DNA of 64,000 nucleotides from Cyanobium sp. (GTDB taxonomy: Bacteria; Cyanobacteriota; Cyanobacteriia; PCC-6307; Cyanobiaceae). Within the stretch, counting starts at the first letter, position 1. Every line of letters begins with the position of its first letter. A program made the position numbers and the translations under genes. The DNA is taken from assembly GCA_014191755.1 (NCBI GenBank), contig BJHE01000008.1, forward strand, positions 27,072 through 91,071, written 5' to 3'. Positions 4,856-63,374 of this stretch are shown one piece after another. Below the pieces are notes generated by a model. It made no database searches, was not told where the DNA came from, and saw nothing but the letters and a program-made list of their open reading frames with translations.

Positions 4856-5873
4856 AGCCATGGCCCCGACCACTGAACGTGATCCCGATCTGGTGAGCAC
4901 CATCATTCCGGTGCACAATCGTGCCGATCTGCTGCGGGAAGCCGTAGCCAGCGTTCTGGCCCAGACCTATCGGCCGATCGAGATCGTGATCGTGGACGAC
5001 GGCTCCACCGACGACACCGCCGCCGTGGCGGAGGACCTAGCCCACACCAGCCCGGAGTCGATCCTGGTGATCCACCAGCCCAATGCCGGTCCGGGTGCAG
5101 CCCGGCAACGGGGCCTGGATCGTGCCCGAGGAAGCTTCATTCAGTTCCTGGATTCCGACGACCTGCTGCTGCCGGGCAAATTCGCGGCCCAAGTGGGAGC
5201 TATGCGGCACAAACCCGACTGCCACATCAGCTATGGGCCGAGCCTGGAGGAAAACCACTCGATTCAGCCTGTGCAGCGCCGTGGGCCGATGCGCGGCACC
5301 GGCCAAGTGCGGACCACCCTGTTCCCCCATCTGCTGGTGGAACGCTGGTGGACCACCAGTTGTCCTCTCTACCGCCGTGACTTGCTGGATCGTATCGGTC
5401 CCTGGCGCAGTTGGATCAATGAGGAGGACTGGGAGTACGACGCCCGGGCGGGAGCCACGGGGGCCAGGCTCGCCTGGGTACCGGAGGAGGTGTCAGTGCG
5501 GCGGATTCATCTGGCCGATGGCCACCTCAGCGATGAGGGCTGCGAAGATCCTCGCAAGCTCTCCCACCGTGCCCTGGCCCAAGCCTCCCTCTTCCACTGC
5601 GCCCGGCAGGCGGGCGTGGCCCATGACACACCGGAGATGCGGCAGTTCGTGAGGGCCTCCTTCCTTCTGAGCCGCCAGTGCGGCCTCGCCGGCGTAAACG
5701 ATGCCTCCAAGTCCCTGTTCCAGCTGGCCAGGGCTGCCTCCGGACGACGACGGCTGCAGCAATCTCCGGAATTCCTGCTCTACGGCCTGCTGGCCGCCCT
5801 GGTTGGCTGGCGGGGTGCCGCCCGAGTGAGCCTGGGGCTGCGCCGCCTGATGCCCCGCCGCAACGCCCCATGA
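4842..5873 (+). CDS. Glycosyltransferase family 2
   Basis: 'VSTIIPVHNRADLLREAVASVLAQTYRPIEIVIVDDGSTDDTAAV', classic GT2 N-terminus; start may be ATG 4860. Confidence 0.9.
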   Translation: MEGAEAMAPTTERDPDLVSTIIPVHNRADLLREAVASVLAQTYRPIEIVIVDDGSTDDTAAVAEDLAHTSPESILVIHQPNAGPGAARQRGLDRARGSFIQFLDSDDLLLPGKFAAQVGAMRHKPDCHISYGPSLEENHSIQPVQRRGPMRGTGQVRTTLFPHLLVERWWTTSCPLYRRDLLDRIGPWRSWINEEDWEYDARAGATGARLAWVPEEVSVRRIHLADGHLSDEGCEDPRKLSHRALAQASLFHCARQAGVAHDTPEMRQFVRASFLLSRQCGLAGVNDASKSLFQLARAASGRRRLQQSPEFLLYGLLAALVGWRGAARVSLGLRRLMPRRNAP

Positions 5874-6784
5874 CCCCGACGACTCCACTGGTTTCCGTGG
5901 TGATGGGGGTGCGCAACGGTGCCGGGACCCTGGAAGCCACCCTGACCTCCCTCACCCAGGGCCAGGATCTCGACCTGGAAGTGCTGGTGATCAATGACGG
6001 CTCGACCGATCAGACCGGTGCGCTGCTGGAACGCTTGGCCGCCGCAGATCGCCGCATCCGGGTGCTGACCCGCGAGGGTCGAGGGCTCACTCGGGCCCTG
6101 ATCGAGGGCTGCAGCGAAGCCAGGGGCAGCTTCATCGCCCGGCAGGATGCTGGCGACCGCTCCCTGCCAGGACGACTCGCGCAGCAGGTGAGCTGCCTAG
6201 AGGCCGATCCAGGTGCCAGTCTTTGCTCCAGCCACGTGCGGCTGGTTGTGGAGGAGGGGGCCACCGCCACCGTGAACCGGCTGGGCGAGGAAAGCCTGGC
6301 CGATGGACTCACCGGACCGTCGATCCATGGTTCGGTGCTCATGCGCCGCGAAGCCTACGAACGGGCCGGCGGCTACCGGGCAGCCTTCTATTACGCCCAG
6401 GATCTCGATCTCTGGAGCCGGATGGTGGAATCCGGGCGGCATCGGGTGGTGCCCGAGGTGCTCTACGAGGCCACCCTTTCGCCTGGATCGATTAGCGGTT
6501 CCCGGCGCCAGGAACAGGAGGCCTTCCACGCCCTGATCGTGGGAGCCACCCGGGCCCGTCGGGCCGGGGAATCCGAGGATCCCTGGCTGGAGCAGGCCGA
6601 GCAGCTGAGCGGAAGCTGCCGCACTGCCCGCCGCAATCCCCGCCGCGAAGCCGATGGCGCTTACTTCATCGCAGCCTGCCTAGCGGCCGAGCACCCTGAT
6701 CTGTCCCGCCGGTACCTGGATCGCACCCTGGAGCTGAACCCCTGGCACCTCAAGGCGCGGCTACGGCAGCTGAGGGCACGATGA
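5870..6784 (+). CDS. Glycosyltransferase family 2
   Basis: ATGA overlap with upstream gene; 'PLVSVVMGVRNGAGTLEATLTSLTQGQDLDLEVLVINDGSTDQTG'. Confidence 0.9.
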   Translation: MTPTTPLVSVVMGVRNGAGTLEATLTSLTQGQDLDLEVLVINDGSTDQTGALLERLAAADRRIRVLTREGRGLTRALIEGCSEARGSFIARQDAGDRSLPGRLAQQVSCLEADPGASLCSSHVRLVVEEGATATVNRLGEESLADGLTGPSIHGSVLMRREAYERAGGYRAAFYYAQDLDLWSRMVESGRHRVVPEVLYEATLSPGSISGSRRQEQEAFHALIVGATRARRAGESEDPWLEQAEQLSGSCRTARRNPRREADGAYFIAACLAAEHPDLSRRYLDRTLELNPWHLKARLRQLRAR

Positions 6785-54959: not shown

Positions 54960-55763
54960 TCAGATCGCGGGCCCATCGAGCAGATTCAGTTGTACCGCCC
55001 GCACGGACGCCTGCGGCTTCCCCTGCTGGAACGGCGCCGCCGGCAGACCTGCGGAGAGTGGCGGCGCGGCGATCGGGGCGAGGCCCCCACCGGCCGGCCC
55101 TGCGGGCAGGAGGCTCCCGGGCTCCAGCTTCACCGCCTCCCAGGCCGCCGGATCCCAGGAGCCCATCAGGGGCTCAAGGGCCCGCAGGCCAGGCCCGTCG
55201 GTCGCGTCCAGCCAGGCCTCCTCCAGCCCGTCCGGAATGACGACAGGCATCCGGTCATGCACGCGGCGCAGCAGGTCGTTGGGGGCGGTGGTGAGCACCA
55301 CGCAGCTCTCGAGTTCGCCGCCATCGGGGCCGCACCAGCGATCCCAGAGGCCGCCGAGCCAGAAGGGAGAACCATCGCGGCGGCGGAACAGCCACGGCTG
55401 CTTCCAAGGCTTGCCCGTGGACGGATCGGTGCGATTTTGCCACTCGTAAAAGCCATCGGCCGGCAGCAGGGCGCGACGGTGCCGCCAGGGTCCGCGAAAA
55501 AAGGGCTTTTCCGCCACCGTCTCGCAGCGGGCATTGATCGGCCGGCTCCGGCCCAGCGGATCTTTGCTCCACTCAGGCACCAGGCCCCAGAGCGCCAGGC
55601 CCACCGCCAGGCGGCCGTGCTCCTGACGCTGTAGCAGAACCGGCTCCCCCGGCCGCACCTGGATCCGGGGGGAGTAGTGCTCCGCCAGGCCGTGCGGCAG
55701 GGGCCCCTGAAGCCGCGGCAGCAAGGCATCGAGGGCGGTGTTGAGGGAGAAGCGGCCGCACAT
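54960..55763 (-). CDS. SRAP domain protein (YedK/HMCES family)
   Basis: Starts MCGRFSLN (catalytic Cys2); 'INARCETVAEKPFFRGPWRHRRALLPADGFYEWQ', 'HDRMPVVI'. Confidence 0.95.
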   Translation of the reverse strand: MCGRFSLNTALDALLPRLQGPLPHGLAEHYSPRIQVRPGEPVLLQRQEHGRLAVGLALWGLVPEWSKDPLGRSRPINARCETVAEKPFFRGPWRHRRALLPADGFYEWQNRTDPSTGKPWKQPWLFRRRDGSPFWLGGLWDRWCGPDGGELESCVVLTTAPNDLLRRVHDRMPVVIPDGLEEAWLDATDGPGLRALEPLMGSWDPAAWEAVKLEPGSLLPAGPAGGGLAPIAAPPLSAGLPAAPFQQGKPQASVRAVQLNLLDGPAI

Positions 55764-55918
55764 CGGGCAGAAGAGGGGCGGGTGAAGGAAGCGACCAGTG
55801 ACGAATCGAGAGCTGCGGCTACGAGGCGAGCCGGCTCCCCTTCGGTTCTCCCACCCAGCAGGCGAGCCAGCGGGCGGCACACCCGCCTAGCCTGGCTCCA
55901 TCTCAACTCTTACGCCGC

Positions 55919-57781
55919 ATGGCCATCCGCCAGGACGACAACCGCCCCAGCCGGCGCTTCGGCCTGATCAACCTGCTGCTGATCGGCTTCGGCGTGCTGC
56001 TGCTGGCCAGCAACTTCCTGCCAAACCAGGCGATGCAGGTGCCGCGGGTTCCCTATTCGCTGTTTATCGACCAGGTGAACTCCGACAATGTGAAGCGCGC
56101 CTTCATCACCTCCGACCAAATCCGTTACGAACTGATCAAACCGCCGGCCGAGGGGGCCCCCACGGTGCTGGCCACCACCCCGATCTTCGATATGGAGCTG
56201 CCCCAGCGGCTGGAACAGCACGGCGTGGAGTTCGCCGCCGCCCCGCCCCGCAAGCCCAGCTTCATCACCACCTTGCTGAGCTGGGTGGTGCCGCCGCTGA
56301 TCTTCATCGGGGTGCTCCAGTTCTTCGCCCGCCGTAGCGGCATGGGCGGCGCCCAGGGCGCCCTGAGCTTCACCAAGAGCAAGGCCAAGGTGTACGTGCC
56401 CGACGAGGAATCGCGGGTCACCTTCGCCGACGTGGCCGGTGTGGATGAGGCCAAGACGGAACTCACGGAGATCGTGGACTTCCTCAAGACGCCCGAGCGT
56501 TATGCCGCCATCGGCGCCCGCATTCCCAAAGGGGTGTTGCTGGTGGGCCCTCCCGGCACCGGCAAAACGCTGCTCTCGAAGGCGGTGGCCGGCGAGGCAG
56601 GCGTGCCCTTCTTCATCATCAGTGGCTCAGAGTTTGTAGAGTTATTCGTGGGTGCGGGTGCCGCCCGGGTGCGCGATCTGTTTGAAGAGGCCAAAAAGAA
56701 AGCCCCCTGCATCATCTTCATCGACGAACTCGATGCCATCGGCAAGAGCCGCGCCGGCTCGATGGGAATGATGGGCGGCAACGACGAACGCGAGCAGACC
56801 CTCAACCAGTTGCTCACCGAGATGGATGGCTTCGCCTCCCAGGACAAGCCGGTGATCGTGCTCGCGGCCACAAACCAGCCCGAAGTGCTGGATGCGGCTC
56901 TGCTGAGGCCCGGCCGTTTCGATCGCCAAGTGCTGGTGGATCGCCCCGACCTCTCCGGCCGGCGCACGATCCTGGGCATCTATGCCAAGAAGGTGAAGCT
57001 CTCCGATGGCGTTGACCTCGACAAGATCGCCCAGGCCACCAGCGGCTTCGCCGGTGCCGATCTGGCCAATCTGGTGAACGAGGCCGCCTTGCTGGCCGCC
57101 CGCGCCAAACGCACCACCGTGGAGCAGGGCGACCTGAATGAAGCCATTGAACGCGTGGTGGCAGGTCTGGAGAAGAAGAGCCGCGTGCTGCAGGCCGATG
57201 AGAAGAAGGTGGTGGCCTTCCACGAGGTGGGCCACGCGATCGTGGGCCACCTGATGCCGGGCGGCAGCAAGGTGGCCAAGATCTCAATCGTGCCCCGCGG
57301 CATGAGCGCCTTGGGTTACACCCTCCAACTCCCAACCGAGGAACGCTTCCTCAACTCCAAAGAAGATCTCGAGGGCCAGATCGCCACCCTCCTGGGCGGC
57401 CGTAGCGCCGAGGAGATCGTCTTTGGCGAGGTCACCACCGGCGCCGCCAACGACCTGCAGCGCGCCACTGACATCGCCGAGCAGATGGTGGGCACCTTCG
57501 GCATGAGCGACACCCTGGGCCCCCTCGCCTATGACAAGCAGGGGGGTGGCCGTTTCCTGGGCGGCAACAACAACCCCCGCCGCTCGGTGAGCGATGCCAC
57601 TGCCCAGGCGATCGACCGGGAGGTGCGGGGCCTGGTAGACCGCGCCCACGACCGGGCCCTGGCGATCCTGAGCCACAACCGCGAGCTGCTCGACTCCATC
57701 TCCCACAAGATCCTCGAGAAGGAGGTGATCGAGGGAGATGAACTCAAGGACCTGCTGGCCTCCAGCCTGATGCCGGGATAA
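55919..57781 (+). CDS. ftsH: ATP-dependent zinc metalloprotease FtsH
   Basis: '[28 protein letters not shown]', '[14 protein letters not shown]', 'HEVGHAIVG' zinc motif. Confidence 0.97.
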
Positions 57782-57933
57782 TGATCATCAATCGAATGAA
57801 CGAAACAACTGGCCTCGTAGCCCGCGATACACCATTTTCCTCTTTGCACTTGCATCTTTTTACATAGGCACACCTAGATAGCTTGACACATCCATGCTTG
57901 ATGAATAAACTTTAACCGAAAGTTTTTTTGTTC

Positions 57934-58440
57934 ATGGATCTCCAATCGCTGCTTACCAGTATTGGCAATACCCGTAGCAATCCTCCAGATTCCGCAACTT
58001 ACACCTGGTACCCTACGGCAGCGGAATCGGATCGTTCCCAACCTCACTATGTCAATAAGGATGTGAAGCTTGGCATAGATTTTCAGGTGAGCAAGCTCCC
58101 CTTCGAAGCTTTGCAAGTCATGGATGCTCGCTTGGTCACGATTGCGCCTGGGAGCTGCAATGAAAAACACCGCCATTCACACGAAGCTATCTTCGTGCTG
58201 CTTTCGGGCCAGGGGGAAATCATCATCGATCACCAAGCGATGCCGCTTGAACTGGGTTGCGTTGCCTCTGTACCCCGCTGGGTTGTGCACCAGTGCCGCA
58301 ACACCTCTAGCGAAGCGCCATTAATGCTGCTGGCCATCACCGATTTTGGTCTGACCTCAGCCGTGCTGGGTAACTACGACGCCAAGACAAGGCTCAAAGC
58401 CGGCGGCGTCGACGCCTTCGCCGCAGAGGATCGCGACTAA
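57934..58440 (+). CDS. Cupin-domain protein
   Basis: 'PGSCNEKHRHSHEAIFVLLSGQGEIII' (cupin motif 1) and 'PRWVVHQCRN' (motif 2); TTG 57928 alternative start. Confidence 0.82.
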   Translation: MDLQSLLTSIGNTRSNPPDSATYTWYPTAAESDRSQPHYVNKDVKLGIDFQVSKLPFEALQVMDARLVTIAPGSCNEKHRHSHEAIFVLLSGQGEIIIDHQAMPLELGCVASVPRWVVHQCRNTSSEAPLMLLAITDFGLTSAVLGNYDAKTRLKAGGVDAFAAEDRD

Positions 58441-58590
58441 GCCCATCGCTTCGCGCATCAAACACGCCCAATCAATCCGCCCCAATCCTTAAGTTTAACT
58501 CACACCTACACATTATCCTTAAGCCAGTTACAGGCTATTCAGTCTGCACGCAACTCTTCCAACTAGTCCAATTCAAAGCCATTCACTCCG

Positions 58591-59409
58591 ATGACCTTTG
58601 TAGCAGATTTACCCCGCCGCCTAACCAGCCTCAAGGAAAGCCGGCTAAACGACGAAGCCGGCCAGGATTGCGACAGCCCAGCCCTATACGTCGACGATCT
58701 GGCGCAGAAAGCTCTCCAACATCGCGCCGTGAATCACCCCTATCTTCATGCGATGGCAACAGGTGCTTTCCCTTCTCTTCATGGAGCCTTGGCTGATTTT
58801 GCCCAGCATTATAACGGCTATTCTGCCCATTTCCCCCGCTATCTCACTGCTCTAATATCCAAGCTGGAAAACCCAGATCATCGAAAAGTGCTGCTCGAAA
58901 ACCTCATGGAGGAGTCGGGTCAATATGAGGAAGAAGAGCTGCTAGAGCTTAAAGAATGCGGAGTTCAACCAGAATGGATCACCGGCATTCCCCACCCTGA
59001 GCTGTTCAAGCGCTTTCGCAATGCCATCGGTGTGGGCGACAGCACCGCAGATCACGACCACATCGAGGTGGTCTGCTGGCGCGAACAATTTCTTGCCATC
59101 TTGAACACGGGATCGGCTGCCGAAGCCCTCGGGGCCCTGGGCCTTGGCACCGAAACGATTGTGCAGACCATCTACCGACCCTTTGTTGCTGCCATCAACC
59201 AGCTAGGCAGCCTCAAGCCAGAAGATGCCGTTTTCTTTCCATTGCATACGGCCGTCGATGACCACCACCAGGCCACCCTCAAAGCGATTGCCAGCGATTT
59301 CGCCGCCACAGCCGCCGGCCGGGCCGACCTCACCAAGGGCATGCGCAAAGCCCTTGCTCTGCGGGATTCCTTCTGGTCTTGGCTGCATGAACGCGCCATG
59401 GCCGGCTAA
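58591..59409 (+). CDS. Iron-containing redox enzyme family (heme-oxygenase-like / TENA-PqqC-like fold)
   Basis: 'YSAHFPRYLTALISKLENPDHRKVLLENLMEESGQYEEEELLE', 'HIEVVCWREQFLAIL', 'FFPLHTAVDDHHQATLKAIA' with Glu/His/Asp positions compatible with a diiron site. Confidence 0.75.
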   Translation: MTFVADLPRRLTSLKESRLNDEAGQDCDSPALYVDDLAQKALQHRAVNHPYLHAMATGAFPSLHGALADFAQHYNGYSAHFPRYLTALISKLENPDHRKVLLENLMEESGQYEEEELLELKECGVQPEWITGIPHPELFKRFRNAIGVGDSTADHDHIEVVCWREQFLAILNTGSAAEALGALGLGTETIVQTIYRPFVAAINQLGSLKPEDAVFFPLHTAVDDHHQATLKAIASDFAATAAGRADLTKGMRKALALRDSFWSWLHERAMAG

Positions 59410-59755
59410 GCAGGCCCTTACAGCAACGGATCTCCACAGGACGCTACCGATGTTCGCACCTATTGAAGGCAAATATCCAGAACAATCTCTGCACAATCCA
59501 GTGGCTTAAGCCCTGATCTATTGAGCTGTAAATCATCCCTAGGCTCAGGTTCTTTATGCGAATAACCTATCCGATTCCCAGTCCTCCCCAAGAAAATTGG
59601 CACAATTCTTCCTGAAACTAGCTATGCCTATTGGCGCTAGATCGACGCAACGCAACACAATAAGCTTGTCAACTCAAGCAGGCCTGGACGCCACCCAAAA
59701 CAACCATTCCAGTAGACCGGGGCTACATAAAAAAGCTAGTTCCACCCGCAAAACC

Positions 59756-60523
59756 ATGGACCTAAACAACCGCCAGCTTTACAACGCCTCCGTAGCAGCC
59801 TGGCGTCGCCAGGAGCCAATTATACTCAGCGACTTCACCGCCAGACCCCGTGTGATTGAGGTCTTGGGTGACGTCCGTGGTCTACATCTCTGGGATCTGG
59901 GCTGCGGTGAAGGCTTGGTGGGCCGACAATTGGTCTCGGGAAATCCTGCCCGAATTGATGGCTTCGATCTCTCCGAGCAGATGATCGCAGCCGCCCGAGA
60001 GCAAGCGGCTGCTCTGGCGAGTGACCAGGGCGGGCCGCTGCACTACCGCGTGGCTGACCTGGCCGATCCAGCCCAGCTGCCCAGCGGCTCCTGCGATGCG
60101 GCGGTGGCTGTCTTTCTATTCAACTACCTCGACCTCCTAGCCACCGAGCAGGTGCTCCGCTGGGTGCGAATGGCGCTGCCCCCCGGTGGATCCTTCACCT
60201 TCACCGTTCCCCATCCCAGCCTTGCTTTTCTGCGGCCGGCCGAAGCCCCCTTTTATATCGAACCTGGCAACCACACCTACCTGGGCAGCAGCGATCAACT
60301 CTTCGAGGGCCGGATCTGGCGCCGCGACGGCATCAGCAACGCGATCCGATCCAGACACAAGAGCCTGGAGGATTACAACCGGGTTCTTCGCAACAGCGGC
60401 TGGACCCGCATGCCGCTGATCGAAGAGCTGGGGGTGACGGAAGAGCATCTCCACCTGGATCCAACCTTCTTCGGCCCCTTACGCGGCACCCCACTCCACC
60501 TGCTGTTCCAAGTGCAGGCATGA
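59756..60523 (+). CDS. Class I SAM-dependent methyltransferase
   Basis: 'LHLWDLGCGEGLVGRQLVSGNPARIDGFDLSEQMIAAARE', 'SCDAAVAVFLFNYLD'; ORF extends upstream to 59597 but ATG 59756 fits the domain. Confidence 0.85.
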   Translation: MDLNNRQLYNASVAAWRRQEPIILSDFTARPRVIEVLGDVRGLHLWDLGCGEGLVGRQLVSGNPARIDGFDLSEQMIAAAREQAAALASDQGGPLHYRVADLADPAQLPSGSCDAAVAVFLFNYLDLLATEQVLRWVRMALPPGGSFTFTVPHPSLAFLRPAEAPFYIEPGNHTYLGSSDQLFEGRIWRRDGISNAIRSRHKSLEDYNRVLRNSGWTRMPLIEELGVTEEHLHLDPTFFGPLRGTPLHLLFQVQA

Positions 60524-61455
60524 CACCCCCCAGCAAGCGCTTTCAAGCCTGGCGCGCGGCCGATCTAGCCAACAGCAACCATTGGATTTTTGCCGCTGAA
60601 GCCAGCCTGGCCGCAGCCGATCCAGATAGCCTGCGGGCCTGGTGCCAACCCCTGATCAGCGAATTGCAGCACGGCTGCGGGGTGGCGCTGGTGCGGGGGC
60701 TTGGCGGGCTCGATGGGACAACGCTAAGGCAGCTCTACCTTGAGATTGGCTGCTGCATCGGCGAGCTGGACACCACCTACGGCGCGCTTTACGAGGTCAC
60801 CGACTCGGGAGAGTCCCATCGGGTGCGGGCGATTCCGGTCTCCCAAACCCATGCTTCCACCTCGGTGCACACCGACAGCTCCCGCCTTGAGACCCATCCC
60901 CGCTGGGTCGGCCTGGCCTGCATGCGCCAGGCCCCGCTGGGGGGTGGCTCCCGGCTGGTCTCGGTGATAGCGGTGCACGACCAGCTGGCCCAGACCCACC
61001 CCGCCCAGCTGCAGCGCCTCAAGCGCTGCTTCCACCGCGACCTGGTGACGCCTGGATCCTGTAACGACCTGGCCGGCATCAAGGCCAACCGCTTTCCGGT
61101 CTTCTTCGACGCCAGCGATGGCCCCAGCCTGCGCTACATGCGTTATTGGATCGAAACGGGCCAGGAGCGGATCGGCGAACCTCTGGGGCCGCTTGATTGC
61201 GAGGCCTTCGATGCCCTCGATGCCGCCCTCAATGATCCGCAACTGCGCCACGACTTCGCCCTGGCACCAGGGGATCTGTTGTTCATCGACAACCACAAGG
61301 TGGCCCACGATCGCGATGCTTACCAAGACGATCCCAGCGCACCGCGGCTGATGCTGCGCCTCTGGCTCAATGAACCATGCCCCCTCTCAAGGCCCCCCTG
61401 CAGCCCCCCCTTGACGGCGGGCAGCCCGATCCCGGATAAGGGTTGTTTGAGCTAG
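60520..61455 (+). CDS. TauD/TfdA-family Fe(II)/2-oxoglutarate-dependent dioxygenase
   Basis: HxD in 'SVHTDSSRLETHPRW', distal 'FIDNHKVAHDRDAY', 'PRLMLRLWL'; ATGA overlap with methyltransferase. Confidence 0.85.
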   Translation: MTPPSKRFQAWRAADLANSNHWIFAAEASLAAADPDSLRAWCQPLISELQHGCGVALVRGLGGLDGTTLRQLYLEIGCCIGELDTTYGALYEVTDSGESHRVRAIPVSQTHASTSVHTDSSRLETHPRWVGLACMRQAPLGGGSRLVSVIAVHDQLAQTHPAQLQRLKRCFHRDLVTPGSCNDLAGIKANRFPVFFDASDGPSLRYMRYWIETGQERIGEPLGPLDCEAFDALDAALNDPQLRHDFALAPGDLLFIDNHKVAHDRDAYQDDPSAPRLMLRLWLNEPCPLSRPPCSPPLTAGSPIPDKGCLS

Positions 61456-61459
61456 GCCC

Positions 61460-62443
61460 ATGCCCGCCACCCCTCCCCACGCGTCGGCCGCCGCTGACCG
61501 GTCCCCGCTGGATGGGCTTGTCGGCGGCGATCTGCTCTCCTCCGCCGACCTCACCCCGGAGCAGACCCGGGCCCTGCTGTCATTGGCGGCCGATCTCAAG
61601 GCCGGCCGGCGCCGCATCGACCTGGGCGGCAAGCTGCTTGGCCTGATCTTCAGCAAGGCCTCCACCCGCACCCGGGTGAGCTTCACCGTGGCCATGGCGC
61701 GCCTCGGCGGCCAGACCATCGACCTGCTGCCCATCGTGACCCAGGTGGGCCGGGGCGAGCCGCTGGCTGACACGGCGCGGGTGCTGAGCCGCTACTGCGA
61801 TGCCCTGGCGATCCGCACCTTCGCCCAGGCCGACCTGGAGTCCTATGCCCACTGGGCGACGATCCCGGTGATCAATGCCCTCACCGACCTGGAGCACCCC
61901 TGCCAGGCCCTGGCCGATTTCCTCACACTGCAAGAAGCCTTCGGCAGCAGCCCGGCGGACCTGGCCGGCCTGACCCTGGCCTACGTGGGTGATGGCAACA
62001 ACGTGGCCCACTCCCTGATGATCTGCGGCGCCCTGCTGGGGGTGAATGTGCGGATCGGCTGCCCGGAGGGTTTCTCCCCCGATCCCAATGTGCTGGAGCG
62101 GGCCCGGGCCCTGGCGGAGCACGGCGCCCAGGTCACGGTGGTGCACGAGCCGCTAGAGGCGGTGCGGGGCGCTCATGCCCTTTACACCGATGTGTGGGCC
62201 TCCATGGGCCAGGAGGAGGAGCAAGCCGAGCGGGAACGGGCCTTCGCCGGCTGGTGCCTCGATGAGGCCCTGCTCAGCGAGGCCGATCCGCGCGCCATCG
62301 TGCTGCACTGCCTGCCGGCCCACCGCGGCGAGGAGATCAGCTCCGGGGTGATCGAGGGCAGTGCCAGCCGGGTGTTCGACCAGGCCGAAAACCGCCTCCA
62401 CGCCCAGCAGGCCCTGTTGGCCACCCTGCTGGGCGGCCTCTGA
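61460..62443 (+). CDS. argF: Ornithine carbamoyltransferase
   Basis: 'FSKASTRTRVSFTVAMARLGGQ', 'ALTDLEHPCQALADFLTLQE', 'VLHCLPAHRGEEIS'. Confidence 0.96.
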   Translation: MPATPPHASAAADRSPLDGLVGGDLLSSADLTPEQTRALLSLAADLKAGRRRIDLGGKLLGLIFSKASTRTRVSFTVAMARLGGQTIDLLPIVTQVGRGEPLADTARVLSRYCDALAIRTFAQADLESYAHWATIPVINALTDLEHPCQALADFLTLQEAFGSSPADLAGLTLAYVGDGNNVAHSLMICGALLGVNVRIGCPEGFSPDPNVLERARALAEHGAQVTVVHEPLEAVRGAHALYTDVWASMGQEEEQAERERAFAGWCLDEALLSEADPRAIVLHCLPAHRGEEISSGVIEGSASRVFDQAENRLHAQQALLATLLGGL

Positions 62444-62596
62444 AGCCCCGAGCCTCGGGGTCCAACCCCGCCAGGCGCCGGCCGTACCTCGAAAGAAACG
62501 CGCCCACGACGCCCCAAACAGCGCCACCTGGACGCCACCACCCTGGACAAATCGGCCCAACCCTGGCAGAACAGGGGTGGTTCATCCGTACTGCTC

Positions 62597-63226
62597 GTGT
62601 TCGCATCGCCGGCCATCGCCAGCCCGGAGCCCCTCACCAGTGCCCAGCAGGAGCTCTACAACTGGCTGGAGGGCTACATCCACCAGCACCGCCACAGCCC
62701 CTCCATCCGCCAGATGATGGAGGCGATGGGGCTGCGTTCCCCGGCCCCGATCCAGAGCCGCCTGCGGCACCTCCAGCAGAAGGGCTGGATCACCTGGCAG
62801 GAGGGCCAGGCCCGCACGCTCCAGCTTCTGGGGGAGAAGGCGGCTGGGATTCCGGTGCTCGGTGCGGTGGCGGCCGGTGGCCTGATTGAAACCTTCGATG
62901 ATGTTCAGGAGCGGCTTGATCTGGCGCCCGTGCTCGACACCCGCGGCCTGTTCGCCCTCACCGTGAACGGCGACTCGATGGTGGAGGCCCACATCGCCGA
63001 TGGCGACGTGGTGCTGATGGAGCCGGTGGCCGACCCGGCCCGACTCCGCGACGGCACCATCGTCTGCGCCCAGGTGAGCGGCAGCGGCACCACCCTCAAG
63101 CACTTCCATCGCAGCGGCGGCGAGGTGCGGCTGGAGGCCGCCAATCCGGCCTATGCGCCGATCGTGCTGCCTGCCGAGGAGGTGGTAGTGCAGGGCCGCC
63201 TACTGGCAGTGTGGCGCCAGGTGTGA
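62597..63226 (+). CDS. lexA: LexA-family transcriptional repressor
   Basis: wHTH 'YIHQHRHSPSIRQMMEAMGLRSPAPIQSRLRHLQQKGWI', cleavage-site region 'GAVAAGGLIE', catalytic 'NGDSMVEAHI' and 'TTLKHFHR'; GTG start. Confidence 0.92.
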   Translation: MFASPAIASPEPLTSAQQELYNWLEGYIHQHRHSPSIRQMMEAMGLRSPAPIQSRLRHLQQKGWITWQEGQARTLQLLGEKAAGIPVLGAVAAGGLIETFDDVQERLDLAPVLDTRGLFALTVNGDSMVEAHIADGDVVLMEPVADPARLRDGTIVCAQVSGSGTTLKHFHRSGGEVRLEAANPAYAPIVLPAEEVVVQGRLLAVWRQV

Positions 63227-63374
63227 CAGAAGCCCCACTCCCTGCGAGGACGATGGGGCTGGGACAGACCACGTTGTAAGCTCAGTGTGCGCCTGGCAAG
63301 CCCTTAGGGCTATCCGGAAAGGCGGGTTTCCCTCGGGTCACCCCACCAGCATTCCCGGAGCCTCACGCATCCCA

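Follow-up and report, generated by a model that had tools for sequence, protein, structure and literature searches.

The window, a stretch of 64,000 nucleotides from Cyanobium sp., carries four co-directional genes wedged between ftsH and argF; in order, they encode a cupin, a heme-oxygenase-like diiron oxidase (HDO), a SAM methyltransferase (MT) and a TauD-type Fe(II)/2-oxoglutarate (2OG) oxygenase (Table 1). The coordinates, the strand and the enzyme families given for these genes in a preliminary description were confirmed, the families by Pfam matches, and the reported coupling of the MT and TauD genes was found as an ATGA overlap of stop and start codon at 60520-60523. The spacers described there as AT-rich (57782-57933, 58441-58590 and 59410-59755) have a GC content of 40, 48 and 49%, respectively, whereas the window as a whole has 64%. 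The cupin and HDO genes have a GC3 of 0.61, the MT gene one of 0.72 and the TauD gene one of 0.79, as compared with 0.87 in ftsH and 0.90 in argF.

Table 1 Features of the ftsH-argF region (positions in the window)
Feature	Position	Strand	Remarks
ftsH (flanking)	55919..57781	+	Original C-terminal tail lost to the insertion
Inserted DNA, 3.64 kb	57767..61405	+	Replaces ~96 bp (L133 11811-11906) of the relative G542
Sigma-70-like promoter match, TTGACA-17-TAAACT	57883..57911	+	22 bp ahead of the cupin start codon (ATG); sole match in the block
Cupin, 168 aa	57934..58440	+	Pfam Cupin_2, 8e-16
HDO, 272 aa	58591..59409	+	Pfam Haem_oxygenas_2, 1e-19
Spacer, 49% GC	59410..59755	+	36-bp match to L041, weak (E=0.003)
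Class I SAM methyltransferase (MT), 255 aa	59756..60523	+	Pfam Methyltransf_25, 7e-14
TauD-type Fe(II)/2OG oxygenase, 311 aa	60520..61455	+	Pfam TauD, 1e-34
Native argF leader, TTGACG...GGATAAGG	61406..61459	+	Conserved in empty-site relatives
argF (ornithine carbamoyltransferase; flanking)	61460..62443	+	Outside the cassette; assigned in the preliminary description and by sequence reading

The proposal that this block is an acquired island was borne out by an empty site. In G542, the nearest relative available that has the flanking genes (FtsH 99% and ArgF 95% identical), ftsH is followed directly by argF, and when positions 55001-63300 of the window were compared with this locus (L133) by blastn, the alignment stopped at 57766 and restarted at 61406, with flanks 92-93% identical. 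Since the relative has ~96 bp where the window has ~3.6 kb, the block is an insertion; the cassette is horizontally acquired. FtsH ends in LMPG in the window and in TLPTEAALQAVAA in G542, and similar long tails are present in other relatives; this replacement of the FtsH tail favors a gain here over a loss in G542. In two more genomes of the same genus (L126 and L131), ftsH likewise adjoins argF without the cassette. The right edge of the insertion lies inside the TauD frame, so that the last codons and the stop come from the conserved argF leader, and the residues encoded by them are disordered in the model (pLDDT below 50). The insertion has placed the argF leader within the 3' terminal part of the TauD frame, and argF expression may depend partly on transcription of the cassette. 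The same block was found between ftsH and argF in the picocyanobacterial contigs L041 and L043 (G107, another genus) and, with the gene order changed, in L044, while L046 has the cupin and HDO genes alone at this place. Phage records gave no match to the cassette, none of the viral contigs encoded a relative and the plasmid search gave a single distant match; hence, phage or plasmid cargo was rejected.

Purifying selection acts on each of the four genes (dN/dS of 0.10-0.39 in comparison with cassette-bearing relatives), which are therefore maintained for function. The promoter listed in Table 1 is to be read as a consensus match only, because shuffled sequences are expected to give 1.4 such matches where the block has one. 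A tRNA-Ala was the only RNA element detected between 53000 and 64000.

Predicted active sites and fused domains

Three metal-dependent enzymes and a methyltransferase had been proposed, and the iron ligands were indeed found to be conserved among the homologues of the HDO, the cupin and the TauD enzyme. In the HDO, residues E108, H135, E188, H219 and H226 are invariant among 51 homologues and D223 is either Asp or Glu; this reproduces the Glu...His, Glu, His-x3-Asp-x2-His pattern of the superfamily, and the heme-oxygenase fold was recognized in a Microcystis homologue, whose fold matches those of BesC, CADD and UndA. The apparent diiron site would thus consist of three His and three carboxylates and would place the enzyme in the BesC/CADD branch. 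In the genome G023 (L004/L008), an HDO homologue of 59% identity (L008 7148-8107, minus strand) carries H219R, D223H and H226R, so that none of the three ligands on the third metal helix is left. It stands without a cupin, an MT or a TauD enzyme of the families described here and is presumably either decayed or repurposed.

The HDO of the window is devoid of an N-terminal domain for binding of cyclic nucleotides (cNMP) that is present as PF00027 in its closest homologue, L041 (86% identical), and the spacer 58441-58590 holds no convincing remnant of it. Such a domain is common among the HDOs; the fusion was confirmed in L041, L062 and L096 and was recognized by sequence reading in L043, L047, L049, L052, L055, L066, L080 and L086, and fusions of this type span several phyla; no description of a cNMP-HDO fusion was found in the literature searched. 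L041 also holds a decayed second HDO copy (5220-5530) between its HDO and MT genes, at the place that corresponds to the spacer 59410-59755 of the window, which fits a merger of two gene modules. The MT and TauD genes of L041 contain one in-frame TAG each (6203-6205 and 6742-6744), to be ascribed to decay, a strain mixture or an assembly error. At four Bacteroidota loci, a gene for a FAD/2Fe2S-type reductase (identified by sequence reading) is adjacent to the cassette genes, and it is a plausible electron donor.

In the cupin, H79, H81, H83, E84 and H119 are invariant among 37 homologues and the usual Glu position is occupied by Ser, Thr or Ala; a mononuclear iron site with three His ligands (H79, H81 and H119) is predicted from this pattern. 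Its nearest solved sequences by profile are gentisate 1,2-dioxygenases. The MT has 3bkw, ToxA and phosphoethanolamine N-methyltransferases as its nearest profile matches and is probably an N-methyltransferase. The TauD enzyme shows the H-x-D...H iron triad and the distal Arg for 2OG expected of the TauD/TfdA family, as H117, D119, H263 and R276, all invariant among 24 homologues. By profile it is nearest to FrbJ (2e-36), then to TtnM, γ-butyrobetaine dioxygenase (GBBH) and TmpA, and by fold to TmpA, TtnM and BBOX1. When compared with the aromatic cage of GBBH, which we take to be Y177, W181 and Y194, two positions are aromatic (Y87 and Y/F91) and the third is not, being Q109 (Gln, Met or Lys in homologues). 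Downstream of two distant HDOs (L009 1431-3054 and L034 7542-9225), a different protein is encoded, which resembles PhyH-type 2OG oxygenases; an HDO combined with a methyltransferase and a 2OG oxygenase may be a more general pattern.

Distribution of the HDO and its partners

The HDO was found in five of 201 sampled genomes of the family and the TauD enzyme in four, three genomes being common to both; in the phylum, 17 of 386 genomes have the HDO, some of these being distant. When 85,000 species genomes were scanned with an HDO alignment, 132 relatives were obtained, and the neighborhoods of the best 80 loci were analyzed, with partner families assigned by profile searches. These loci belong to about ten phyla, including Cyanobacteriota, Planctomycetota, Myxococcota, Pseudomonadota, Bacteroidota and Verrucomicrobiota, and mostly to aquatic bacteria. 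In the HDO tree, which is a quick one with some weak branches and with many rows from metagenome bins that may be mislabeled, the Microcystis HDOs cluster with those of Bacteroidota, apart from the picocyanobacterial ones.

Next to the HDO gene in these 80 loci, a cupin was found in 48, an MT in 34 (nearly always together with TauD) and a TauD enzyme in 33, all at no more than about 3 kb, and all 48 cupins share the strand of the HDO. At least one partner family adjoins the HDO in 67 of the 80 loci, across about ten phyla, and all four genes are together in about 15; L056 was counted through a TauD gene on the opposite strand some 3 kb away. The pairing of HDO and MT extends to distant HDOs of about 34% identity (L137 and L034). 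Genome-wide searches showed genomes with HDO and cupin but without MT, e.g. Sphingopyxis, as well as genomes with HDO, MT and TauD but without cupin; five genomes in which no MT adjoins the HDO locus carry one elsewhere. Co-occurrence of the two halves falls short of expectation, not above it (16/32/19/13 loci; Fisher p=0.04, and p=0.24 when restricted to loci whose flanks are complete). The neighborhood comparison suggested in the preliminary description thus showed that the families co-occur across about ten phyla but do not form an indivisible set, as half-sets exist alone in whole genomes. The refuting outcome named there, an absence of co-occurrence in other genomes, was not observed. The HDO is the hub, with the cupin and MT/TauD as two modules. 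As the halves occur alone and are together less often than expected, the data do not call for a single linear pathway of four steps; a common HDO product may be processed differently by the two sets.

When all neighboring open reading frames of the 80 loci were clustered, the cupin, MT and TauD alone recurred beyond local synteny. The reported lack of NRPS, PKS and ligase genes holds for the whole set, as none of these and no transporter (for uptake or export) or precursor gene was recurrent in the 80 loci.

The HDO and cupin are also found in a single chain. HDO-linker-cupin proteins are encoded in six Microcystis genomes and the reverse, cupin-HDO, in two picocyanobacterial loci (L042 and L057); fusions in both orders are good evidence that the two act in the same pathway. 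A model of the Microcystis fusion had a mean pLDDT of 81 and a pTM of 0.52, so that the relative placement of the domains is unsure. It matched BesC and CADD with a target-based TM-score of about 0.8. The match to SznF extended through both domains (~480 columns), its TM-score of 0.3-0.4 being due to a different placement of the two domains. In Microcystis (L030-L033), the cassette adjoins genes resembling dndD and dndE of phosphorothioation; this neighborhood is possibly a shared variable spot.

Proposed pathway and comparison with known systems

In SznF, the N-nitrosating HDO-cupin enzyme of streptozotocin, the HDO yields a reactive intermediate that is rearranged by the 3-His cupin (PMC11705231, PMC10849742). 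The reading we favor, to which we give somewhat better than an even chance, is that the cassette is a self-contained, HDO-centered oxidative-tailoring operon, in which the HDO and cupin work in series and the MT and TauD enzyme tailor. With O2, the HDO would oxidize or cleave a free amine or a metabolite of the amino acid type; its reactive product would next be handled by the 3-His iron cupin, a partner protein here but fused to the HDO in Microcystis and others, in a two-site tandem of the SznF style. Methyl groups would then be added by the MT, with nitrogen as the most likely acceptor, and the methylated product would be hydroxylated by the coupled TauD enzyme. We infer the step order, the amine substrate and the N-methylation from the families involved, and the suggested substrate class rests on distant homology; no fixed four-step pathway is claimed, mainly because of the partly complementary distribution of the modules. 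A wider proposal, rather unlikely as a whole, is that mostly aquatic bacteria of about ten phyla share an unrecognized pathway class. In it, an HDO responsive to cyclic nucleotides would act jointly with a 3-His cupin in a new oxidative rearrangement (N-N formation or C-C cleavage) of a free amine, the product of which would be converted by interchangeable tailoring modules to an interspecies metabolite.

The cassette could instead serve the catabolism or detoxification of a small molecule of aquatic habitats, be it aromatic, betaine-like or phosphonate-like, which would explain its patchy spread in plankton. The proximity of the cupin to gentisate dioxygenases and of the TauD fold to TmpA and GBBH, the sporadic distribution of two separable modules and the lack of a recurrent exporter or precursor gene are in line with this, but methylation by SAM is unusual for degradation and an uptake transporter is not recurrent either; we consider it unlikely.

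Quite unlikely, too, is a pathway closer to those of SznF and ham, in which the HDO would N-oxygenate an amine, the cupin would give an N-nitroso compound or diazeniumdiolate, and the MT and TauD enzyme would decorate it into a signal, toxin or metallophore. In the case of streptozotocin, a methyltransferase acts upstream of SznF, a step that would suit such a pathway. The pairing of HDO and cupin is that of SznF, GrbD and ChmM, where an HDO is followed by a 3-His cupin as in the Microcystis fusion, and the ligand patterns agree; the H-x3-D-x2-H spacing of the HDO resembles H311/D315/H318 of SznF, and the His pair and third His of the cupin resemble H407/H409/H448 (PMC11705231). The ham cluster of fragin and valdiazen also unites an HDO, HamA (9vwb), and a cupin, HamB, in one pathway (PMC11705231), but it has an NRPS and an AurF-type N-oxygenase as well, and HamA is a weak match to the HDO (profile E=0.07; fold weak too). 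The window differs from SznF in having separate genes, in the order cupin then HDO, with a TauD partner, and its HDO is nearer to BesC and CADD by sequence and fold, with an apparent 3-His/3-carboxylate site where SznF has 3-His/4-carboxylate; in the sequence alignment, no conserved acidic residue was found at HDO positions 81 and 83, near the spacing expected for the fourth carboxylate of SznF. Direct homology to SznF was rejected, as SznF was absent from the HDO profile matches listed and from the best 60 of 97 cupin profile matches. Many loci are without any cupin, which also speaks against such a pathway. Of the likeness to both BesC and SznF that had been suggested, the former stands by sequence and fold and the latter by domain layout, not by sequence.

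A cofactor supply as with CADD, in which the HDO would form p-aminobenzoate or a precursor akin to it, possibly out of residues of the HDO itself, and the other genes would be accessory, is very improbable: CADD is among the nearest solved HDOs and its NCBIfam subfamily model matches with E=2e-16, but the score of 60.3 bits misses the cut-off of 200. Constant pairing with a cupin or with MT/TauD is not known as a feature of CADD, which also speaks against it. That four unrelated accessory genes are adjacent by chance is hardly credible, since the modules can occur apart but recur side by side across about ten phyla, on a common strand and with fusions in both orders; chance clustering was rejected.

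HDO-based pathways and HDO-cupin pairs are already known, whereas this lineage with its gene set appears to be new in the literature searched (mostly without subscription papers), in which no description of such a cluster was found. A reaction is known for about a dozen HDOs among more than 10,000 sequences (PMC13108848); for this lineage, strong functional clues are offered by the cupin fusions in both orders, the coupled MT and TauD genes, the cNMP domain and the candidate reductase. Members are carried by named strains, Microcystis aeruginosa NIES-4325 and Sphingopyxis terrae NBRC 15098, so that the product can be approached by ordinary metabolomics; it would show what bloom-forming cyanobacteria and their neighbors make or destroy with the cassette.

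Among characterized enzymes, BesC (4-chloro-allylglycine synthase, E=2e-11) and CADD (4-aminobenzoate synthase, E=6e-11) are nearest to the HDO, which scored 32.7 bits with the NCBIfam equivalog model of BesC against a cut-off of 500. It differs from both by an insert of ~20 residues between the first Glu and His ligands and by its cupin and MT/TauD partners. The TauD enzyme shares the Fe and 2OG ligands with its nearest relatives FrbJ, TtnM, GBBH and TmpA; Y87 and Y/F91 match Y177 and W181 of GBBH, while the position of Y194 is Gln, Met or Lys. It is set apart from all four by the motif RYMRxWI, which is specific to the TauD family of the cassette.
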